From positions 1-42,593 of the forward strand of contig JAHDCI010000022.1 in assembly GCA_020629955.1 (NCBI GenBank): a stretch of 42,593 nucleotides of DNA. The letters run 5' to 3'. This stretch comes from Myxococcota bacterium (GTDB taxonomy: Bacteria; Myxococcota_A; Polyangia; Polyangiales; Houyiibacteriaceae). Shown one piece after another: positions 1,294-38,304 of this stretch. The number at the start of each line of letters is the position of its first letter. Position 1 is the first letter of the stretch. A program made the position numbers and the translations under genes. Under the pieces are notes generated by a model. That model saw nothing but the letters and a program-made list of their open reading frames with translations, was not told the DNA's origin and searched no databases.

Positions 1294-1455
1294 CTAGTGC
1301 GGGGATCACATCGATCGAAGGGATGATCTTTCGTGAGGGGCGCCGAGGCGAGCTTCGGAGAGCCGACGACATGCCGCGTATATGAACGAAGAGCGAAGCT
1401 CGCCTCGGCGTTCTGGCGGAAGAGGGCCCTTCGAGCGATGTGAACCACGCACTAG
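1294..1455 (-). repeat. Palindromic MITE-like element, copy A (full length, about 162 bp)
   Basis: Both ends read CTAG followed inward by a related sequence: on the minus strand the left arm starts CTAGTGCGTGGTTCACATCG and the right arm reversed starts CTAGTGCGGGGATCACATCG. The arms continue as imperfect inverted repeats (GAAGGGNNNNTCTT) and an inner inverted repeat around CGCCGAGGCGAGCTTCG, so the whole element can fold into one long hairpin. The same architecture recurs at 15617-15820, and parts recur at 12460-12527 and 26400-26474. No transposase is encoded. The minus-strand LysR gene ends with TAG formed at one tip (1452-1454). The element lies between two convergent genes and could act as a bidirectional transcript 3' end, which is inference. 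Confidence 0.85.
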
Positions 1456-2357
1456 GAACGCGCCAACGCCTCAAGCGCAAGGCTGATGCGCGGGGTGAGA
1501 AAGTCGAGCAAGGCGCGCAGCCTCAGGGATGCGAGACGCGCGTTCGCGAACACAAAACTGACCGGAAGCGACGGCGGCTCGAACCTCTCAAGAACGACCT
1601 TCAGCCGCCCCTGCTCAACCAACTCCGCAACCTGGTATTGCAGAAAACACCCATAGCCAAGCCCCGCGGCGCACGCTTCTACCCCGGCGGCGATGTGATT
1701 GGTTCGAATGCGGCCGCGGGTTGGAACAGTGTTGCGCGCTCCTTCCGCCGCGAACGTCCACCGTGAGTTCGTTCCAGCCCCGACAAGAATGCAGGGCAGC
1801 ATTTCCAGCGAAGCGGGCGTCAATATCGGTCCGTCTTCGCGAATCCGGTCCGGACTTGCGACCACCACTTGCCGCATCGTTCCCACTTGGCGGGCGACCA
1901 AACTCGAATCCACAAGATGGCCAATGCGCACAGCAAGATCGATGCTCTCCTCTACGAAGTCCATCAGTCGGTCGGCGAGAACGAAGTCGAGCTCCACCCC
2001 GGGATGTTCCGCCGCGAATTCCATCAGCGCCCCGGCAACATGGAGTTCGCCAAAGCGAACAGGAGCCGTGACTCGGAGCGGTCCGCGCAACGCGCCCGGC
2101 TTTGAGACGAGCGAGGCCTCCGCCTCGGCGACGTCTGCAAGGATTTTTCGAACGCGCTGAAGATAGGTTCGCCCTTCCGCGGTCAACGCCATCCTGCGTG
2201 TCGTTCGGTGGAGAAGAACGACGCCGAGTGACTCCTCGAGCTGCTGAAGGGTACGGACCGCGGTGGGCAACGAGATACCGAGACGTTTGGCTCCGCTGGT
2301 CAGGCTGCCGCCCTCGGCAGTCGCAACAAAACACCGCATGGCGCGAAATCTATCCAT
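1452..2357 (-). CDS. LysR-family transcriptional regulator
   Basis: 301 residues, the usual LTTR length. The N-terminal winged helix-turn-helix spans about residues 1-60 (MDRFRAMRCFVATAEGG..., with SGAKRLGISLPTAVRTLQQLEESLG as the HTH and LLHRTTRRMALTAEG as the wing). It is followed by the linker helix and a two-lobed periplasmic-binding-protein-like effector domain (RGPLRVTAPVRFGELHVA...). It resembles the CrgA/AaeR-type subgroup often paired with redox or GST genes. It is divergent from the GST/PPOX pair that starts at 2492, the classic arrangement for an LTTR controlling its neighbours and itself. The TAG stop is formed at the tip of repeat copy A. The ATG start at 2357 matches the family N-terminus exactly. 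The inducer is unknown. Confidence 0.93.
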   Translation of the reverse strand: MDRFRAMRCFVATAEGGSLTSGAKRLGISLPTAVRTLQQLEESLGVVLLHRTTRRMALTAEGRTYLQRVRKILADVAEAEASLVSKPGALRGPLRVTAPVRFGELHVAGALMEFAAEHPGVELDFVLADRLMDFVEESIDLAVRIGHLVDSSLVARQVGTMRQVVVASPDRIREDGPILTPASLEMLPCILVGAGTNSRWTFAAEGARNTVPTRGRIRTNHIAAGVEACAAGLGYGCFLQYQVAELVEQGRLKVVLERFEPPSLPVSFVFANARLASLRLRALLDFLTPRISLALEALARS

Positions 2358-12057: not shown

Positions 12058-12345
12058 ATGTGGAAGACCTTTCTAGTCCTTGCTTTCGTCAGTTTCGGCC
12101 TCATCGGATGCGATGATATGACCGACCGCCAAGCCGGCGAAGGTTGCCAGCCCGCGTGCATGACCACCGTGGACGAGTTGGACGATGAGACTCTGACCCG
12201 TGTCGTTTGTCTCGATGAAGAGTTTGATGCTGCGGCCTGTGCAACGCTTCCGGGACCGAGCTGCCCGGGTTCCGCGGAACTTGTGATGTGTGGCGACGAT
12301 GGTCTCCCCGTCTGTTCCGACGGCACGACGCCGACCTGCAACTAG
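12058..12345 (+). CDS. Small cysteine-rich lipoprotein, function unknown
   Basis: 95 residues. A lipoprotein signal (MWKTFLVLAFVSFGLIGC) places the lipid anchor on Cys18. The mature part is acidic and has eight further cysteines (CQPAC, VVC, AAC, GPSC, MCG, PVC, PTC), suggesting disulfide bonds outside the cytoplasm. No family was recognised. Similar tiny lipoproteins with spaced Cys residues are frequent in myxobacteria. The stop is TAG within ACTAGTAG. A remnant of the palindromic element (copy C) lies about 115 bp downstream. Confidence 0.7.
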   Translation: MWKTFLVLAFVSFGLIGCDDMTDRQAGEGCQPACMTTVDELDDETLTRVVCLDEEFDAAACATLPGPSCPGSAELVMCGDDGLPVCSDGTTPTCN

Positions 12346-12459: not shown

Positions 12460-12527
12460 TTAGTACGCGGTTCAAATCGCCAGAAGGGCCCTCTTCCGCC
12501 AGGACGTCCGATCCGAGTTTCGCTCAT
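12460..12527 (+). repeat. Palindromic element, copy C (left arm fragment)
   Basis: Begins TTAGTACGCGGTTCAAATCG and continues with AGAAGGGCCCTCTTCCGCC and CGATCCGAG. These closely match the left half of copies A and B and then diverge at about 12527. The right half is absent, so it is a decayed or truncated copy. The rest of 12346-12578 holds only a weak hairpin (CGGAATCGGTTCCG) after the lipoprotein stop. Confidence 0.75.
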
Positions 12528-12578: not shown

Positions 12579-14219
12579 CTAGTCTTCGTCCGCGACGTAG
12601 ATATAGAAACCAGGTGCCGAGGACGCAGATTCAAGTGGGTCCTTCGGCCCGTCCTCAGCTTCTACGACCGGCTCCTCCGCGACCGGAGCTGCGATGCCTT
12701 GAAGCGTGTGCGGGAACTGACTCGTAGGTCGTCGCGCCGACGATGATTCGCGTTGCGCGGGTGCCCCCTCCGCAACCTCGGGCGGAACACTATCGACCAA
12801 ATTTCCCTCTTCGTCCGTCGGCGAGGCGAAGAGCAAATCAAGTTCGTCATCCACTTCCGCGGCCGAGGGTTCGTTGCTCGGAACGGTATGTTCCGTCGTG
12901 GGAAGCTCGTCTGCGGGCATCTCGAGCTCATCGAGCGATTCAACAACATCTACGAGCTCGAACTCATCCGAGGACGATTGGGCGCGCTCGTCTTCTTCTC
13001 GTGCGGAAGCTTCTACGGCCGGCTTCGACAAACCTTCGACTTGAATCTCGGGGACCGGAATCGAGCTCCGCGGCGGGTTCGACTCCGGCGCCGGGGGTTC
13101 ACTCTCACCGAAAACAGAACGGAGCGAAACGTCGCTTCGAGGGACCCCTGGATCCGACTCGGGGGAAAACAGGCTCAGGTCCTCGAGAAGCGCATCTCGC
13201 TCGACTGCCGACAAGCTTTCTTCTTCCGCGGGCGGAACGGAGGGGACGGGGGGCGCTGGCCAAAGAGACGTCGAACGGAGTCGGGGCGGGCGTCCAGAGA
13301 GTACCGGGAGCTGAGGCAACTCACGTGTTGAGACACGTTCGAGCAGTGAACCAAGAGCGCCGAAATCCTCGAGGAGTCCGAGCGTGCCTGCGAGCGCTCG
13401 AAGCTCTTTACCGAGCGCGCCTGCGGACTCCCATCGATCTTCCGGAGCCCGCTGAACTGCGCGTTCGACCGCGACTCGAAAGGTGAGAGGCAGGCGCTCA
13501 AGTTCAGAAAGGTCGACCGGCGCTTCGTCGGTCACCGCATTCAGGTATTGAATGCCATCACCTGGGACCATGCGCTGTCCCGTCGCGAGCTCGTAAAGGA
13601 TCGCGCCGACGACAAAGACGTCGGCCTTTGCCGTGACCGGAGCGCGATGATGCACAGACTCCGGCGCCACGTAGCCAATCGTTCCATGAACGCCCTTTTG
13701 ATGGACTCCCGCGGCGCGATCCGCAGCCAGCGTTGCCAAACCGAAATCGATGAGAGAGAGCTGGCCTTGGGGCGAGATCAAAATGTTCTGAAGGCTCAGG
13801 TCACCATGGACAATGCCGGCAGGCTCTCCGTCGAGTTCACGTGTGTGGACATGCTCAAGTGCGTCGCATAGCGCGCAACCTATCTCGAGGACGGCCGCGA
13901 GTTCGAGAGGCCCTTCGCGCAGAATGGCTCGCAGGGAAACGCCCGGAACGTACGCCTGCGAGAGAAACCAGCGATTCTCAAGACAACGAAACTCGTGAAC
14001 GGGTGGGAGAGCTGCATGCGAGAGCATGCTGAGGATGCGGCCTTCGCGGCAGAACGACGAAACCGCCTCGTAATCGTCCCCGAGGTGTTTGTGCAGCACC
14101 TTTACGATGGTGTGACGGCGAAACCCACCGTCGCCCCATTGAACCGCGAGGTGCACTTCCGCACTCCCGCCAGAGGCGATGCGGCTCACCAGTTCGTAGC
14201 GACCGAGAAGCAGACTCAC
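12579..14219 (-). CDS. Ser/Thr protein kinase with acidic C-terminal region (HGD type)
   Basis: 546 residues, GTG start at 14219. The kinase domain fills residues 7-275: glycine loop ASGGSAEV, Lys40 in TIVKVLHK, catalytic loop HGDLSLQN (138-145), DFG 158-160, APE 185-187. The usual HRD Arg is Gly here, so it is a non-RD kinase that may not need activation-loop phosphorylation; the catalytic Asp and Asn are intact. Residues about 300-546 are Pro/Ser/Glu-rich, probably disordered, and very acidic (for example SSDEFELVDVVESLDELEMP). No transmembrane segment is visible, so it is probably cytoplasmic, unlike the kinase genes at 17238 and 19083. It is divergent from the tandem PG-binding-domain gene. 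Confidence 0.9.
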   Translation of the reverse strand: MSLLLGRYELVSRIASGGSAEVHLAVQWGDGGFRRHTIVKVLHKHLGDDYEAVSSFCREGRILSMLSHAALPPVHEFRCLENRWFLSQAYVPGVSLRAILREGPLELAAVLEIGCALCDALEHVHTRELDGEPAGIVHGDLSLQNILISPQGQLSLIDFGLATLAADRAAGVHQKGVHGTIGYVAPESVHHRAPVTAKADVFVVGAILYELATGQRMVPGDGIQYLNAVTDEAPVDLSELERLPLTFRVAVERAVQRAPEDRWESAGALGKELRALAGTLGLLEDFGALGSLLERVSTRELPQLPVLSGRPPRLRSTSLWPAPPVPSVPPAEEESLSAVERDALLEDLSLFSPESDPGVPRSDVSLRSVFGESEPPAPESNPPRSSIPVPEIQVEGLSKPAVEASAREEDERAQSSSDEFELVDVVESLDELEMPADELPTTEHTVPSNEPSAAEVDDELDLLFASPTDEEGNLVDSVPPEVAEGAPAQRESSSARRPTSQFPHTLQGIAAPVAEEPVVEAEDGPKDPLESASSAPGFYIYVADED

Positions 14220-15616: not shown

Positions 15617-15820
15617 CTAGTGCGTGGTTCAAATCGCTGGTGCGTGGTTCAAATCGCTGGTGCGTGGTTCGAATCGATAGAAGGGATGCTCTTCCGCCAG
15701 GAGCGCCGATCCGAGCTTCGCTCTTCCTTCGATATGCTCGGCATGTCGTTCGCCCGTCGAAGCTCGCCTCGGGGCCCCTGACGAGAGAGCATCCCTTCTA
15801 TCGGTTTGATCCCCGCAAGA
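15617..15820 (+). repeat. Palindromic MITE-like element, copy B (full length plus tandem end)
   Basis: Starts CTAG and has the same arms as copy A: GAAGGGATGCTCTTCCGCC...CGAGCTTCG on the left and CGAAGCTCGCCTCGG...AGAGCATCCCTTCTATCG...TGATCCCCGC on the right. The right tip is altered (CAAGAG instead of CACTAG). Without two extra 20-bp end units it is about 164 bp, like copy A. It lies in the 348-bp gap 15558-15905, which otherwise holds only a 10-bp palindrome (AACGATCGTT) near 15560 and the leader of the CbiX gene. Confidence 0.87.
15621..15680 (+). repeat. Three tandem 20-bp end units inside copy B
   Basis: TGCGTGGTTCAAATCGCTGG occurs twice exactly (15621-15640, 15641-15660) and a third time diverged (15661-15680). 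The unit is the outermost inverted-repeat segment of the element, duplicated only in this copy. Confidence 0.93.
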
Positions 15821-26399: not shown

Positions 26400-26474
26400 C
26401 TAGTGCAGGGTTCAGATCGCGAGAGTGGCCCTAACGAAGGATCATCCTGTCCATCGACTTGATCCCCGCACTAG
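26400..26474 (-). repeat. Palindromic element, copy D (75-bp internal deletion derivative)
   Basis: Bounded by CTAG at 26400-26403 and 26471-26474. The left 25 bp (CTAGTGCAGGGTTCAGATCG...) are joined directly to a right end matching the right 45 bp of copies A and B (CCCTAACGA...ATCATCC...TGATCCCCGCACTAG). The core of the full element is deleted. One tip supplies the TAG stop of the lipoprotein gene at 26471. The rest of 26335-26470 is the leader of pyk. Confidence 0.83.
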
Positions 26475-27823
26475 CGAACTGGTCCGAGCGGGGTACCTGG
26501 ACGGGCGAAGGCAACATCCGCCTCATCGTCGGTGATCAGACCGAGGTCCCGTTCGGACTGCGGCGAGATATCGAGGATTCGATTTGTTCTGGTATGCGGG
26601 CCCCAGTCGACGTTTCGCACCACAACTTCCACACCGGTCGACGGGTTTCGAATCACGAGATTGTTTGCGCGCCAGAAATCTCGACCGCCCGGCGAGTAGT
26701 TGTAACGCATCGCGACGTAGTAGTAATCCTCCGGACGAGAGGCGAGATCGGCCGCCGACGGGTCGAGCGGGTTGTTCAACGAACGAAGATTCTCCCCCGT
26801 GATGGCCCCCGTTTCCGTCGCGCTTACACCGGTATCATCCGGTCCGCCGAAGTGGCTAATCGTGCCGCGAACCCACTGTTGGCCAGCCACCGTAACAACC
26901 CTGCCGTGTGGCTCGACCGCCACGCCGAGCGTCCGCTCCAGCGTGCCATTCGCGATTCCCTCGCGAGGAATCTCGTTCCCATCACGGGAGATTCCACCAT
27001 ACGCGCTCGCACCCGGTTCGGGTGGCGCACACATCTGCATAATGGAGAAAGAGTAGGTGACGTCCGTTCCCGGTCCCGTCTCGAAGCCAGAGTCAACCGT
27101 CGCCCAGCCAGTGATATGGGCGAAGAGCGGCACAGCAACATCGGATTGAAGCGTGACTTCGGAGACCATGCCCCCGCGACCCGCGGTCGCCTCCGTGACT
27201 CGAATATCCGGATCGAGCCCACCGTCGCCAAGCCAAACCGGTGAACCGTCCTGGCGGGTAATCCAAATCGCGGGCGCAAACGATCCGGAGTTGCGTACGA
27301 GGCGGAACACCACCGGGCCTCCGCCAGGCATCGTGAGCTCGAACTGGTGAACATCGAAGCGACCGCTCGAGAAATCTTCATCGATATTCCACATGCCGCA
27401 CGCAGCAAGCTCCGCGTCGGGACGCCAGCAACGCCCGGCGGAACAAGGCTGCACGCCGTCATCACAACCGGTACCCGGGAACGCGCACGCAGCGGAAGCT
27501 TCCTGGCATCCTCCACCTGAGGCGCAGAAGCTGCATTCCGGGTCGAGATCGCAACCGGCGCAGGTCAGTCGTGAGCAATCGCGCTCTGGCGGTCGCGTGT
27601 CCGTGCCTGAATCTTCAGGGGCATCGATGCCGGTATCGCGAGGCGGCGAAGTATCCATGGGCATGCTGACGTCGAGCGGGACAAAAGCATCCACGCTCCC
27701 GTCTTCGTCCGTGGATGCGTCGAAGCCACCATCGTCAAACATACGTCCATCATCGTCGCTGCAAGCGAACCCACCGATGGAGAGGATGGTGGCGAAGCAA
27801 AAAGAAAAAGCTCGGAAACCCAT
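26471..27823 (-). CDS. Lipoprotein with Cys-rich module and DPBB-like C-terminal domain
   Basis: 450 residues. The lipoprotein signal (FSFCFATILSIGGFAC) is followed by an Asp/Pro-rich acidic linker (SDDDGRMFDDGG...) and a Cys-rich module (CSRLTCAGCDLDPECSFC...). The middle is beta-rich (FELTMPGGGPVVFRLVRN, AIWITRQDGSPVWLG). The final 90 residues resemble the double-psi beta-barrel of RlpA and expansins: FWRANNLVIRNPSTG, VVVRNVDWGPHT and RILDISPQSERDLGLI line up with the VRINDRGPF and IIDLSxxAAxxLGM motifs, with an Asp in the DWGP position. RlpA-type proteins bind or cut peptidoglycan and expansins loosen cell walls, so a wall or polysaccharide role is possible. The TAG stop is formed with the tip of repeat copy D. 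No neighbour clarifies its job. Confidence 0.65.
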   Translation of the reverse strand: MGFRAFSFCFATILSIGGFACSDDDGRMFDDGGFDASTDEDGSVDAFVPLDVSMPMDTSPPRDTGIDAPEDSGTDTRPPERDCSRLTCAGCDLDPECSFCASGGGCQEASAACAFPGTGCDDGVQPCSAGRCWRPDAELAACGMWNIDEDFSSGRFDVHQFELTMPGGGPVVFRLVRNSGSFAPAIWITRQDGSPVWLGDGGLDPDIRVTEATAGRGGMVSEVTLQSDVAVPLFAHITGWATVDSGFETGPGTDVTYSFSIMQMCAPPEPGASAYGGISRDGNEIPREGIANGTLERTLGVAVEPHGRVVTVAGQQWVRGTISHFGGPDDTGVSATETGAITGENLRSLNNPLDPSAADLASRPEDYYYVAMRYNYSPGGRDFWRANNLVIRNPSTGVEVVVRNVDWGPHTRTNRILDISPQSERDLGLITDDEADVAFARPGTPLGPVR

Positions 27824-27955: not shown

Positions 27956-28960
27956 CTAGCTCAAGGTTCGCGCTCGCTCCTGTTGAGCACGGATGTCGGC
28001 GAGCGAGGCGGGCGCCCTTCGCCGATCTCGAATCGCATCAACACCAACTTCCTTCACCCATTTGCGAAGCTCAACAAAACCTTCCGCATGCGTGATGGAA
28101 GGCTCAAAGTCGAGTCTCTGTCTCGCCCGTCGCCCATCGAGCGAGCACGTCTGCGAGCGAATCAAAATTTCTTCAGGGGGCACATCTCCTCCGCGGCGGG
28201 CTCCCGCCAGAGTGAGCGCCAACGGAAGCGCGCGGCCCGTCTTCGGAGACGCGAGCTCAAGAACTTCACAGAGCTCACCATAGAAAGTGCGCGACGGCGT
28301 CAGCTCGCCGTCCAAGACGTGCAGCACCGAGCCATTTGCGGCGTCAGACTCCAGCGCCTTCGTGACCGCCTGAACCAAGTGTCCGATATACGTCGTCGAG
28401 ACAAGATTGGTCCCTCGTCCAAACAGGCGAATCGCACCGCCTTCCGCTTCTTTCAAGAGCTTCGGCAATCGGGAAAAGTCCCCTGGGCCCCAAAGGAGGC
28501 TCGCGCGAAGTACGAGGGTCTCGAGATATGCTCCCGCGCCGATGACCGCTTCCTCCGCCTCAAGCTTGGTTTTGGTGAACGCGGAAAATGACTTCGCCGG
28601 AGTCCGGTCCTCGTCCCACCCTTCGCGTGAGCCAGGATGCAATGACACATCCGTGCAGCTGAGCGCGATCATGCGACGAACTTCTGCATGTCTCGCTGCC
28701 CGGAGCACATTTTCCGTGCCGGCGACGTTGATCCATCCGAGCGCGTTTACGTCACTCCGGTAGTGATTGTCTCCGGCCGCATGGACGACGATTTCGCACC
28801 CCTCAAACGCCTCCGCGAGCGACGCCGGATCTCCGAGCGAAGCACCGAGCACACCTTCCCCGCCGCGATGCACCCTGCGAACTTCGATGCCGAGTTCTTC
28901 CAGCGAGGACGCGATCGCGCCACCGGCAAAACCTGAGCTTCCAACAACGGCTACGCGCAT
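27956..28960 (-). CDS. NAD(P)-dependent epimerase/dehydratase-like SDR protein
   Basis: 334 residues from the ATG at 28960, preceded by GAGGAAGG; the open frame upstream overlaps the divergent gene and is not real. The Rossmann fold starts at once: VAVVGSSGFAGGAI (G7, G10, G13), a DPASLAEAF segment, and VVHAAGDNHY. It is an extended SDR related to 3-beta-HSD/steroid-type epimerases (GTENVLRAARHAEVRRMIALSCTDV, LRASLLWGPGD). The catalytic YxxxK reads F128-TKT-K132, so the Tyr is replaced by Phe, which argues against normal oxidoreductase chemistry. The substrate is unknown; NAD(P) binding is likely intact. It is divergent from the membrane protein/STAS pair. Confidence 0.82.
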   Translation of the reverse strand: MRVAVVGSSGFAGGAIASSLEELGIEVRRVHRGGEGVLGASLGDPASLAEAFEGCEIVVHAAGDNHYRSDVNALGWINVAGTENVLRAARHAEVRRMIALSCTDVSLHPGSREGWDEDRTPAKSFSAFTKTKLEAEEAVIGAGAYLETLVLRASLLWGPGDFSRLPKLLKEAEGGAIRLFGRGTNLVSTTYIGHLVQAVTKALESDAANGSVLHVLDGELTPSRTFYGELCEVLELASPKTGRALPLALTLAGARRGGDVPPEEILIRSQTCSLDGRRARQRLDFEPSITHAEGFVELRKWVKEVGVDAIRDRRRAPASLADIRAQQERARTLS

Positions 28961-30267: not shown

Positions 30268-31071
30268 CTAGCGACGTCCCATGTAGAAGTGGAAGCCGAC
30301 GTTAAAGAGTGCTCCGATGGAAGTGTTTGTCTCGCGTCCCGTGAAGTCATCGCGGAACTCGTATCCGGACCCGAGCGCTTCGCGCAGGATGATTCGACCC
30401 GTCGCAGACATCGCGAAGCGTCGGCCGAAGCGCCACTCCATGCCCGCTCCACCCTGCACGCCGACGTGAAGGAAGTCGCGCTCGTAGTAGGTGTCCCAGT
30501 CGCCGGTCTGGAGCGTCGTGAAGGAGACGCCAGCGCCCGCGGAGAGGAAAAACTGAAAGCGATCCGAACGATTTAGAAAGAAGAGAAAATCGAACGTGAC
30601 CGGAGTTTCAGAACGTGTGGTGTCCCAATCGTCAGTTCCGTTGTAGTGCCCGATCAGCGCCTGAATGCCGAAGACGCGAGAAGGCCGAAAACGGAACCCA
30701 AGGTCACCGCCCATCGCGAACGATTCACTCCCGCCGCCGCCGCCGAAGCGGGCCATCAGCGAGAATCGGTACGGACGAACCGCCTGAGGAGGTCGTGGGG
30801 CGGTCGATTCGTAAACGATCGGCTGCGCGTATTGCGGCTGCACATACTGCGGCTGCGCGGGCGGCGCCGGAGGAGGTTGCGGTGGAGGCGCGGGCTGAAC
30901 GTAGACCGGCGCGGGGGGCGGCGGCTGCGCAGGCGGCGCCGGCTGGGCACCTCCGCCGACTTGAATATCAACCTCAGCACAGAAGACCGCGTCTGGGGCG
31001 CACTGTGCCTCCGTCACGGAGGGAAGCGCGAGTAGCGCAGCGATCGAAGAAAGAAGAAGGGCTCGTTTCAT
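30268..31071 (-). CDS. Outer-membrane beta-barrel protein with Pro-rich linker
   Basis: 267 residues from the ATG at 31071, with GAGGAA at a good distance upstream; an upstream in-frame start at 31128 is poorer. A signal peptide (KRALLLSSIAALLALPSVTEA) and a short Cys segment (QCAPDAVFCAEVDIQ) lead into a Pro/Gln-rich stretch of about 60 residues (repeated PPAQPP, PPPAP and QPQYVQPQY units). The C-terminal 170 residues look like an eight-stranded barrel of the OmpA/Ail/OprF-like type: FSLMARFGGGG, GGDLGFRFRP, FQFFLSAGAGVSF, GVQGGAGMEWRF, and a last strand NVGFHFYMGRR. It likely sits in the outer membrane. It is the only gene on its transcript, with a terminator at 30211-30240. Confidence 0.78.
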   Translation of the reverse strand: MKRALLLSSIAALLALPSVTEAQCAPDAVFCAEVDIQVGGGAQPAPPAQPPPPAPVYVQPAPPPQPPPAPPAQPQYVQPQYAQPIVYESTAPRPPQAVRPYRFSLMARFGGGGGSESFAMGGDLGFRFRPSRVFGIQALIGHYNGTDDWDTTRSETPVTFDFLFFLNRSDRFQFFLSAGAGVSFTTLQTGDWDTYYERDFLHVGVQGGAGMEWRFGRRFAMSATGRIILREALGSGYEFRDDFTGRETNTSIGALFNVGFHFYMGRR

Positions 31072-36644: not shown

Positions 36645-36808
36645 TAGCAGCCCGTTGATTTACTCTCATTTTGATTCTTGGGACGTTTGGGAGCGCAGAT
36701 GCGTCTGAACCGAAGCCAAGGATTGTGGATACGCGGCTAGGACTCGATGGCGTTTGAGCGCGTGAAAATGTCGCGAGCCGGGATTCAGAGCAAATCAACG
36801 GGCTGTTA
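36645..36808. repeat. Second MITE-like element E with 21-bp inverted ends
   Basis: The left end TAGCAGCCCGTTGATTTACTCT and the reversed right end TTAACAGCCCGTTGATTTGCTCT are a near-perfect inverted repeat (ACAGCCCGTTGATTT core; one difference at the first base and one at the 16th). Both are flanked by TA. No transposase is encoded in the roughly 130-bp interior. It is unrelated in sequence to copies A-D but has the same TA-bounded design. The right tip supplies the TAA stop of the gene at 36806. It fills nearly all of 36611-36805. Confidence 0.82.
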
Positions 36809-37390
36809 AGGAAGAATACTGAGGGCCGCGAGCGTGAACCCGATACCGGCCACGGTTGCTGCCAATGGGCCACCCTTCACTTCGCCGCGCGAGGTCATCA
36901 TCACGCCGCCGCCAATCCAGCCAATCATGCCAAGCAGCGCCACCAGCATCCAGAGCCCGAAGGATTTGGGTCGCGTTGGCCCACTCTCCCACTCGGAATC
37001 CACGTCCTCGAGGACCTGCTGCGCGCTCGCAACGGTATCGGGATAGGGTCGATGAAAGGATTCCACGGCGCGCACCGCTCCGATCAAACTGATCGCGCTG
37101 TGACGGCGAATCTCTTCAGGATGATCACTCGAGCGGGCGATCCGCAAAAGCTCGTCTGCCGCCTCCGCGCTGTATGGATTGCCGGGCGCGTACCAACGAA
37201 GAGATCGACGATACGCTTCGACCGCGGCACGAATATCCCCGCGTTCTTCCGCCGTATGAGCATGCCGTAGTTCTGCTTTCGCCGAGAAGAACGCGCGGCC
37301 CGCGGCGAGACCGAAAACCAATCCGATGAGCGTGAGAACGCCGACGAAGAGTCGGAGAAGGGATCGCGAAGATGCAACCTCGGCGCTCAT
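36806..37390 (-). CDS. Membrane-anchored TPR-like protein, function unknown
   Basis: 194 residues from the ATG at 37390. N-terminal membrane helix (SLLRLFVGVLTLIGLVFGLAAGRAFF), then a helical extracytoplasmic or cytosolic domain with TPR character (AELRHAHTAEERGDIRAAVEAYRRSLRWYAPGNPYSAEAADELLRIA), and a C-terminal pair of hydrophobic segments (FGLWMLVALLGMIGWIGGGVMM, PLAATVAGIGFTLAALSILP). No family recognised. Its ATG overlaps the stop of the ABC-2 permease gene by one base (TGATG), so translation is coupled and the two probably form one machine. The TAA stop is formed by the tip of element E. Confidence 0.72.
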   Translation of the reverse strand: MSAEVASSRSLLRLFVGVLTLIGLVFGLAAGRAFFSAKAELRHAHTAEERGDIRAAVEAYRRSLRWYAPGNPYSAEAADELLRIARSSDHPEEIRRHSAISLIGAVRAVESFHRPYPDTVASAQQVLEDVDSEWESGPTRPKSFGLWMLVALLGMIGWIGGGVMMTSRGEVKGGPLAATVAGIGFTLAALSILP

Positions 37391-38304
37391 CAAACGAAAT
37401 CACGTCGTTGAAAAAGGAGCGTCGCGAGGCAGAGCGCAATCGCCGCATAGATGACCCCGTGGCCAGCCGCGCTGCCCACGTACGACCAGAGAGACTCTCC
37501 CTCTAAAACCGCTCGTCCAGGAACAAAAAGGTTGTAGTTCGGAACCACGTGCCCCACCCCGCGCAGCAACTCCTTCATTTCCTCGCTCAAGAGTTGGGAG
37601 CGAATCGTGAGGAGGGTGTCGGCGCTGCGCCCCATCAGCCAAACGCCGAAGCTAAGCGCTCCGGAGAGGAACGGAGTCGAAAATGCACCGAAGACCAAGG
37701 TTACCGCGCTGAGCACCATCACCTCTGCAGAGGTGAGAACGAGTGAACCGAGAACGGGTTCAACCGCAGCTCCGCGGGATAGGACCCAACTGCCAAGAAC
37801 CAAAAATCCAAGGCCGAAGGGAAGCACGACTAGGCTTCGGTCACGAGATTTCCAGGCACCAAGCCCAAATAGCGCGATCCAGACAAGCCCCACCCCTAGG
37901 GTTAGGCCGAGCCCTTCCCCCGCTTGCGCAGCCATCACGAGGAGCTGAATGCCGCCCATGATGCTGATAAAGACAGCAACCGTAACGACGATGCCCAGGT
38001 ACTTCCCGACTAGAAATTCCCATCGATGAATCGGTCTCGGCAGCACCAGATAGAGCGTTTTTCGCTCGATATCCTTGTAGAGCAGGGAGGCCCCGAGAAA
38101 GATCGAAACGAGGACAGAAAAGAACGAAATCGACGCAAGGCCGATATCTTGGACCACGCGCCGCTGTTGATTGAGCGAGAGCTCTGCGAGCGCGAGGGTA
38201 AAGACAAGGACGGCTGCCGCGAGGAAGACAACCCCGTAAAGGACTCGGTCGCGAACGGCTTCGCGATAGGTATTCAGCGCGACTCCGAAGATCCGGCCAA
38301 ACAT
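37390..38304 (-). CDS. ABC-2-type transporter permease
   Basis: 304 residues from the ATG at 38304 (38307 is an alternative); the much longer frame to 38493 overlaps the upstream gene and is Arg-rich filler. The pattern is that of ABC-2 permeases of the NosY/YhaP kind: MFGRIFGVALNTYREAVRDRVLYGVVFLAA at the N-terminus, SISFFSVLVSIFLGASLLYKDIERKTLYLVLPRPIHRWEFLVGKYLG (the conserved coupling-helix and gate region), then several membrane helices. Such permeases export polysaccharide, lipid or drug substrates, or support gliding and protein secretion, with a separate ATPase. No ATPase gene lies in the window, so the partner must be elsewhere. Coupled by overlap to the genes on both sides. Confidence 0.87.
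   Translation of the reverse strand: MFGRIFGVALNTYREAVRDRVLYGVVFLAAAVLVFTLALAELSLNQQRRVVQDIGLASISFFSVLVSIFLGASLLYKDIERKTLYLVLPRPIHRWEFLVGKYLGIVVTVAVFISIMGGIQLLVMAAQAGEGLGLTLGVGLVWIALFGLGAWKSRDRSLVVLPFGLGFLVLGSWVLSRGAAVEPVLGSLVLTSAEVMVLSAVTLVFGAFSTPFLSGALSFGVWLMGRSADTLLTIRSQLLSEEMKELLRGVGHVVPNYNLFVPGRAVLEGESLWSYVGSAAGHGVIYAAIALCLATLLFQRRDFV

Follow-up and report, generated by a model that had tools for sequence, protein, structure and literature searches.

Tips of two short TA-duplicating element families form the stop codons of adjacent genes in a Myxococcota genome

Introduction

The insertion sequence IS630 prefers as its target a TA that lies within CTAG (Tenzen and Ohtsubo 1991, as cited in passages of PMC2170065 and PMC6811581). 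ISY100, of the IS630/Tc1/mariner family, duplicates TA, and its cuts lie two bases inward of the 5' ends (PMC2170065). The accessible parts of this literature yielded no description of stop codons as landing sites of IS630. Several short elements resemble these systems in one respect or another. RUP of Streptococcus pneumoniae is short, duplicates TA and is ascribed to IS630-Spn1 (accessible text of PMC2229807), and in the same species BOX supplies the stop of 36 genes, without strong evidence for truncation (accessible text of PMC3049150). The enterobacterial ERIC/RU elements, also short and hairpin-forming, have TA duplications and occur at the 3' ends of genes (PMC2759123). MITEPsy1 of Pseudomonas syringae is short and IS5-like, inserts at CTAG or YTAA and makes a 4-nt duplication (PMC3189936).

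Here we describe two short mobile element families (denoted A and B), present in well over a hundred copies in the genome of a Myxococcota bacterium, which came to attention in a stretch of 42,593 nucleotides, here called the window. TA duplication and CTAG preference are common to IS630 and to A and B, but here there are short non-coding elements only, and a matching transposase was not found. As far as the accessible parts of the RUP and BOX accounts go, A and B are like RUP in being short TA-duplicating elements and like BOX in being repeats that supply gene stops; in those parts the stop is not tied to a target rule, whereas in A and B it consists of TA plus the tip base, and pre-insertion codons and conservation were measured. 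In the reported ERIC/RU case the normal stop was removed and the protein extended (PMC2759123), whereas the tip base of A or B rebuilds the stop. MITEPsy1 shares the CTAG-type target, but its duplication is 4 nt, as against TA only in A and B.

Results

Family A has the tip GTGCG, its ends read TA-GTGCGnGGnTCAAATC, and ~156 bp separate its two TAs. In family B, which spans ~160 bp, the ends read TA-(G/A)CAG (tip GCAG or ACAG). Both are non-coding and hairpin-forming, with element lengths of ~70-165 bp, and in both the two tips align as inverted copies, that is, as terminal inverted repeats. In the 5.6 Mb assembly, which is 82% complete and divided into 355 contigs broken at repeats, the A tip pattern gave 249 matches at up to 3 mismatches and its reversed control 7, and a B copy used as query gave 42 matches. 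Family A produced isolated background matches only in 57 relatives, and the A tip pattern had no match in the genome contigs searched from other species; both families appear to be new. They show the features of IS630-type elements, namely terminal inverted repeats, a TA duplication, a CTAG-type target and short length without coding capacity. Judged by their ends, duplication and target, A and B likely belong to IS630; no DDE_3 (IS630-type) transposase matched in the 82% complete assembly and neither an autonomous copy nor a transposase-like ORF was seen behind unpaired tips of A or B. REP/BIME palindromes (20-40 bp, without target duplication) were ruled out, as the elements are ~160 bp long and have a TA duplication. 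A and B elements also stand end to end with the TA shared or nearly so (L117, 10178-10456; L101, 2426-2711; L074, 4780-5092; L073, 5013-5313), as if one element had inserted at the tip of the other.

The elements, the stops at their tips and the free C-TAG stops of the window are as follows.

1297..1452, no strand: family A element whose flanking TAs are 156 bp apart, C-TA flanks intact at both ends
1452..1454, minus strand: TAG ending the LysR gene (1452..2357), made of the TA duplicate (1453-1454) and tip base G (1452)
12343..12345, plus strand: free C-TAG stop, element-less
12461..12527, no strand: partial family A element with a single tip, TTAGTACG...
12579..12581, minus strand: free C-TAG stop
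15618..15820, no strand: family A element, 20-bp tip three times, right-hand TA decayed
26403..26471, no strand: short family A element with internal deletion, 69 bp, target CTAG
26471..26473, minus strand: TAG ending the lipoprotein gene (26471..27823), made of the TA duplicate (26472-26473) and tip base G (26471)
27956..27958, minus strand: free C-TAG stop
30268..30270, minus strand: free C-TAG stop
36647..36806, no strand: family B element, 160 bp, target C-TA-A
36806..36808, minus strand: TAA ending the 194-residue membrane protein gene (36806..37393), made of the TA duplicate (36807-36808) and tip base A (36806)

The preliminary description had claimed that the stops of three window genes are each made of TA and the first base of an element, and this is borne out at 1452-1454, 26471-26473 and 36806-36808; family A adjoins the LysR and lipoprotein genes and family B the 36806 gene. 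The empty CTAG stops to which it pointed nearby (12343 and 12579) are present as claimed, with two more at 27956 and 30268. The three tandem repeats of the 20-bp A tip lie at window positions 15617-15675, and a tandem tip occurs in L069 too.

Stop rebuilding extends from the three window genes to a genome-wide sample of 100 stretches around copies (0.965 Mb including the window), the copies having been picked by tip-consensus similarity and not exhaustively. Both families were modelled, after which 249 tips (165 A and 84 B) were placed in 146 elements; that the tips placed equal in number the genome-wide A-tip matches is a coincidence. A simple, ad hoc caller based on a periodic Markov model gave 773 genes, with 86% of the sequence coding. 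The stop of a gene on the incoming strand lies exactly at TA plus tip (offset 0) for 57 of the 249 tips, 41 of 165 in family A and 16 of 84 in family B, and the elements with such a stop number 54 of 146, roughly a third of the sampled copies. The second most frequent stop offset in family A, -4, occurs five times. Just three genes in the sample read past the tip into the element, and none of the elements sampled in the 0.965 Mb lies within a gene. Three A elements (L064, L070 and L104) rebuild stops at both ends, each for one convergent gene, and the gene pairs concerned formerly overlapped in one common CTAG or CTAA.

The TA is retained on both sides in 40 two-tip elements (25 A and 15 B), the targets of which are CTAG in 22, CTAA in 13 and others in 5. 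A tips read TA-G even at CTAA targets, indicating that the duplication is TA only and that the G belongs to the element; for the same reason an IS5-type 4-bp YTAR duplication was ruled out. The idea that C-TAG stops are the natural targets needs widening: CTAG is indeed the commonest target, but CTAA and TTAG are used as well. A Y-TA-R site in frame is always a stop, so that insertion in that frame hits only stops, and any tip whose first base is G or A will restore one. The identity of the stop can switch on insertion with the protein unchanged, as from TAG to TAA at 36806, where the rejoined pre-insertion codon is TAG and the present stop TAA, and from TAA to TAG elsewhere.

CTAG is rare inside genes, as had been supposed. 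The window contains 25 against 57 expected, and the free CTAG sites of the sample number 225 in ~827 kb of coding DNA versus 171 in ~115 kb of non-coding DNA, the latter comprising 44 stops and 127 others. Elements at Y-TA-R sites lie at stops in 36 of 79 cases (46%), compared with 153 of 575 free non-coding Y-TA-R sites (27%; OR 2.3, Fisher p=0.0008) and with 9% of all free Y-TA-R sites (OR 8.7, p~1e-16). For CTAG alone, stops account for 18 of 48 elements (38%) and 44 of 171 free non-coding sites (26%), which is not significant (p=0.15). The excess at stops anticipated for the whole genome is seen for all Y-TA-R sites but is not significant for CTAG alone. An active attraction, by which insertion would be guided to stops beyond the Y-TA-R preference, whether by the transposase or by termination of transcription at gene ends, could account for the 46% versus 27%, a difference that is stable over gene-score cut-offs, but the result for CTAG alone speaks against it and the same residual would follow if insertions upstream of genes were selected against, and we hold such attraction to be quite unlikely. 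Since the CTAG-alone excess is not significant, the pattern reflects for the most part target availability and purifying selection, with no special attraction to stops; the residual twofold excess may come from selection against insertions upstream of genes.

The copies might also be kept at gene ends for a function of their own, their hairpins acting as terminators or as stabilisers of mRNA 3' ends. The whole-element hairpins are strong, with z-scores of -9.2 for the family A copy at 1297..1452 and -4.8 for the family B copy at 36647..36806, and many copies stand between convergent genes or directly past stops. Yet many others are upstream of genes, with 52 A and 37 B tips facing gene starts, and a hairpin is expected of any inverted-repeat element; a selected function is held to be improbable.

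We then compared the genes with their element-free and pre-insertion states. The 26471 gene has an orthologue that is free of the element, L184 in G002, which belongs to another genus of the same family. This orthologue stops at the same residue as the window gene, with GTTCGC TAG in both, and its C-terminal residues are ...STPLGPVR against ...GTPLGPVR in the window protein. The orthologues in L185, L186 and L189 have a TGA stop and end within one or two residues. Orthologues ending elsewhere would have spoken against the proposal for this gene, and they do not end elsewhere. The C-terminal tails of LysR relatives are alike, and the LysR substrate domain is nearly complete (profile 3-205 of 209, ending 13 residues before the stop). 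Complete C-terminal domains are found in further proteins with rebuilt stops: aspartate carbamoyltransferase (296/297), NADH dehydrogenase subunit 1 (297/298), two MlaE permeases (211/212 and 212/212), OmpA (98/98) and a PdxR-like regulator (447/448). The C-terminus of the 194-residue protein is ~8 residues shorter than in many distant homologues, despite the rejoined codon TAG.

The pre-insertion codon was obtained by joining the flanks with one TA removed, for which 43 cases were testable. It is TAG or TAA in 40, the LysR gene (TAG) among them, and TAC in 3. Together with the element-free orthologue ending at the same residue, this indicates that existing stops were hit and that the genes were not truncated; insertion leaves the protein unchanged, as the preliminary description held, and its view of 3' ends as safe landing sites is supported. 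That elements instead entered genes and their tips (TA plus G or A) made premature stops is highly improbable: a TA-duplicating element with G or A as its first base would always make a stop in an in-frame Tyr codon, as the three TAC cases would allow, but the other 40 codons were stops already, the C-terminal domains are complete, the L184 orthologue has its CTAG at the same residue, and random intragenic insertions predict that ~2/3 read into the element, against the observed 57 stops at the tip to 3.

The TAs at the tips differ in their conservation. Those in the stop frame are intact in 57 cases and decayed in frame in 1. At the opposite tips of stop-bearing elements, 22 TAs are intact and 15 changed (p=5e-6 versus the stop frame), and at all other tips, not used as a stop, 94 are intact and 83 changed (p=5e-11 versus the stop frame); the Fisher tests were computed conservatively with 57:2, and the counts exclude a few tips too degraded to place. 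The TA being intact in the stop frame and decayed at other tips says that many insertions are old and that the rebuilt stop is maintained by selection. Of the unused tip TAs, 47% have changed, a faster decay than one would expect from an element body that is ~90% identical. In family A the changes are mostly to GA or TC (A:T to C:G), and the internal CTAG of this family behaves likewise.

Discussion

Very probably A and B are YTAR-targeting, TA-duplicating MITE families whose G or A tips rebuild stops, with intragenic insertions being lost and rebuilt stops kept. By the look of their ends and targets, they would be non-autonomous miniature transposons, probably mobilised by a transposase of the IS630/Tc1-mariner type. 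Insertion occurs at the TA within Y-TA-R, mostly C-TA-G or C-TA-A, with duplication of the TA, and the G or A of the element end re-forms TAG or TAA next to the gene, whose protein stays the same. The target is symmetric, so that each of two convergent genes on one site gets a stop of its own. Insertions in other frames would break the gene and presumably be removed by selection; with intragenic insertions lost and CTAG scarce inside genes, the survivors would be those at stops or in non-coding DNA. Selection then keeps a rebuilt stop intact, whereas the TA of the opposite tip, being unused, decays. The cause looks ordinary, a combination of TA duplication, the Y-TA-R target, the scarcity of CTAG in genes and purifying selection, and it has precedents in the CTAG preference of IS630 and in the stops that BOX supplies.

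Such a simple sequence rule lets a mobile element increase its copies in a bacterial genome dense in genes and do no harm to proteins. The rule has two parts, the target being a stop in the one gene-shortening frame and the tip base restoring that stop, and it predicts that TA-inserting elements with G or A tips gather at gene ends, and that those with C or T tips extend proteins. In the open-licence literature we came across no earlier formulation of the Y-TA-R rule together with the rebuilding of stops, and on insertion into stop codons little beyond BOX. Annotators should be aware that the stops of dozens of genes here are partly transposon, for example those of aspartate carbamoyltransferase and an NADH dehydrogenase subunit.

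Excision, too, could be silent. It would leave TA-GC-TA (CTAGCTAG), in which the TAG of the gene survives, and a two-base 5' stagger like that of ISY100 (PMC2170065) acting on the GC ends of family B would yield this same TA-GC-TA footprint. Among free CTANNTAG, CTA-GC-TAG is not generally in excess at empty sites, which counts against this reading, and the footprint idea thus concerns tip-adjacent cases only. We suggest tentatively, and with more doubt than conviction, that stops serve as reusable docking sites at which both insertion and excision are silent over repeated rounds. CTAGC is the direct flank of 8 of the 249 tips. CTAGCTAG lies directly at tips in L084 (tip 4732), L090 (tip 4049), L145 (tip 2740), L256 (position 1500) and others, possibly as an excision footprint or as a tip duplication. 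Of the 12 GCTAGCTAG loci in the genome, 8 seem to lie in contact with a tip of A or B, and one has CTAGCTAGCTAG; at several GCTAGCTAG loci a frame of 300-500 codons ends at the first TAG.
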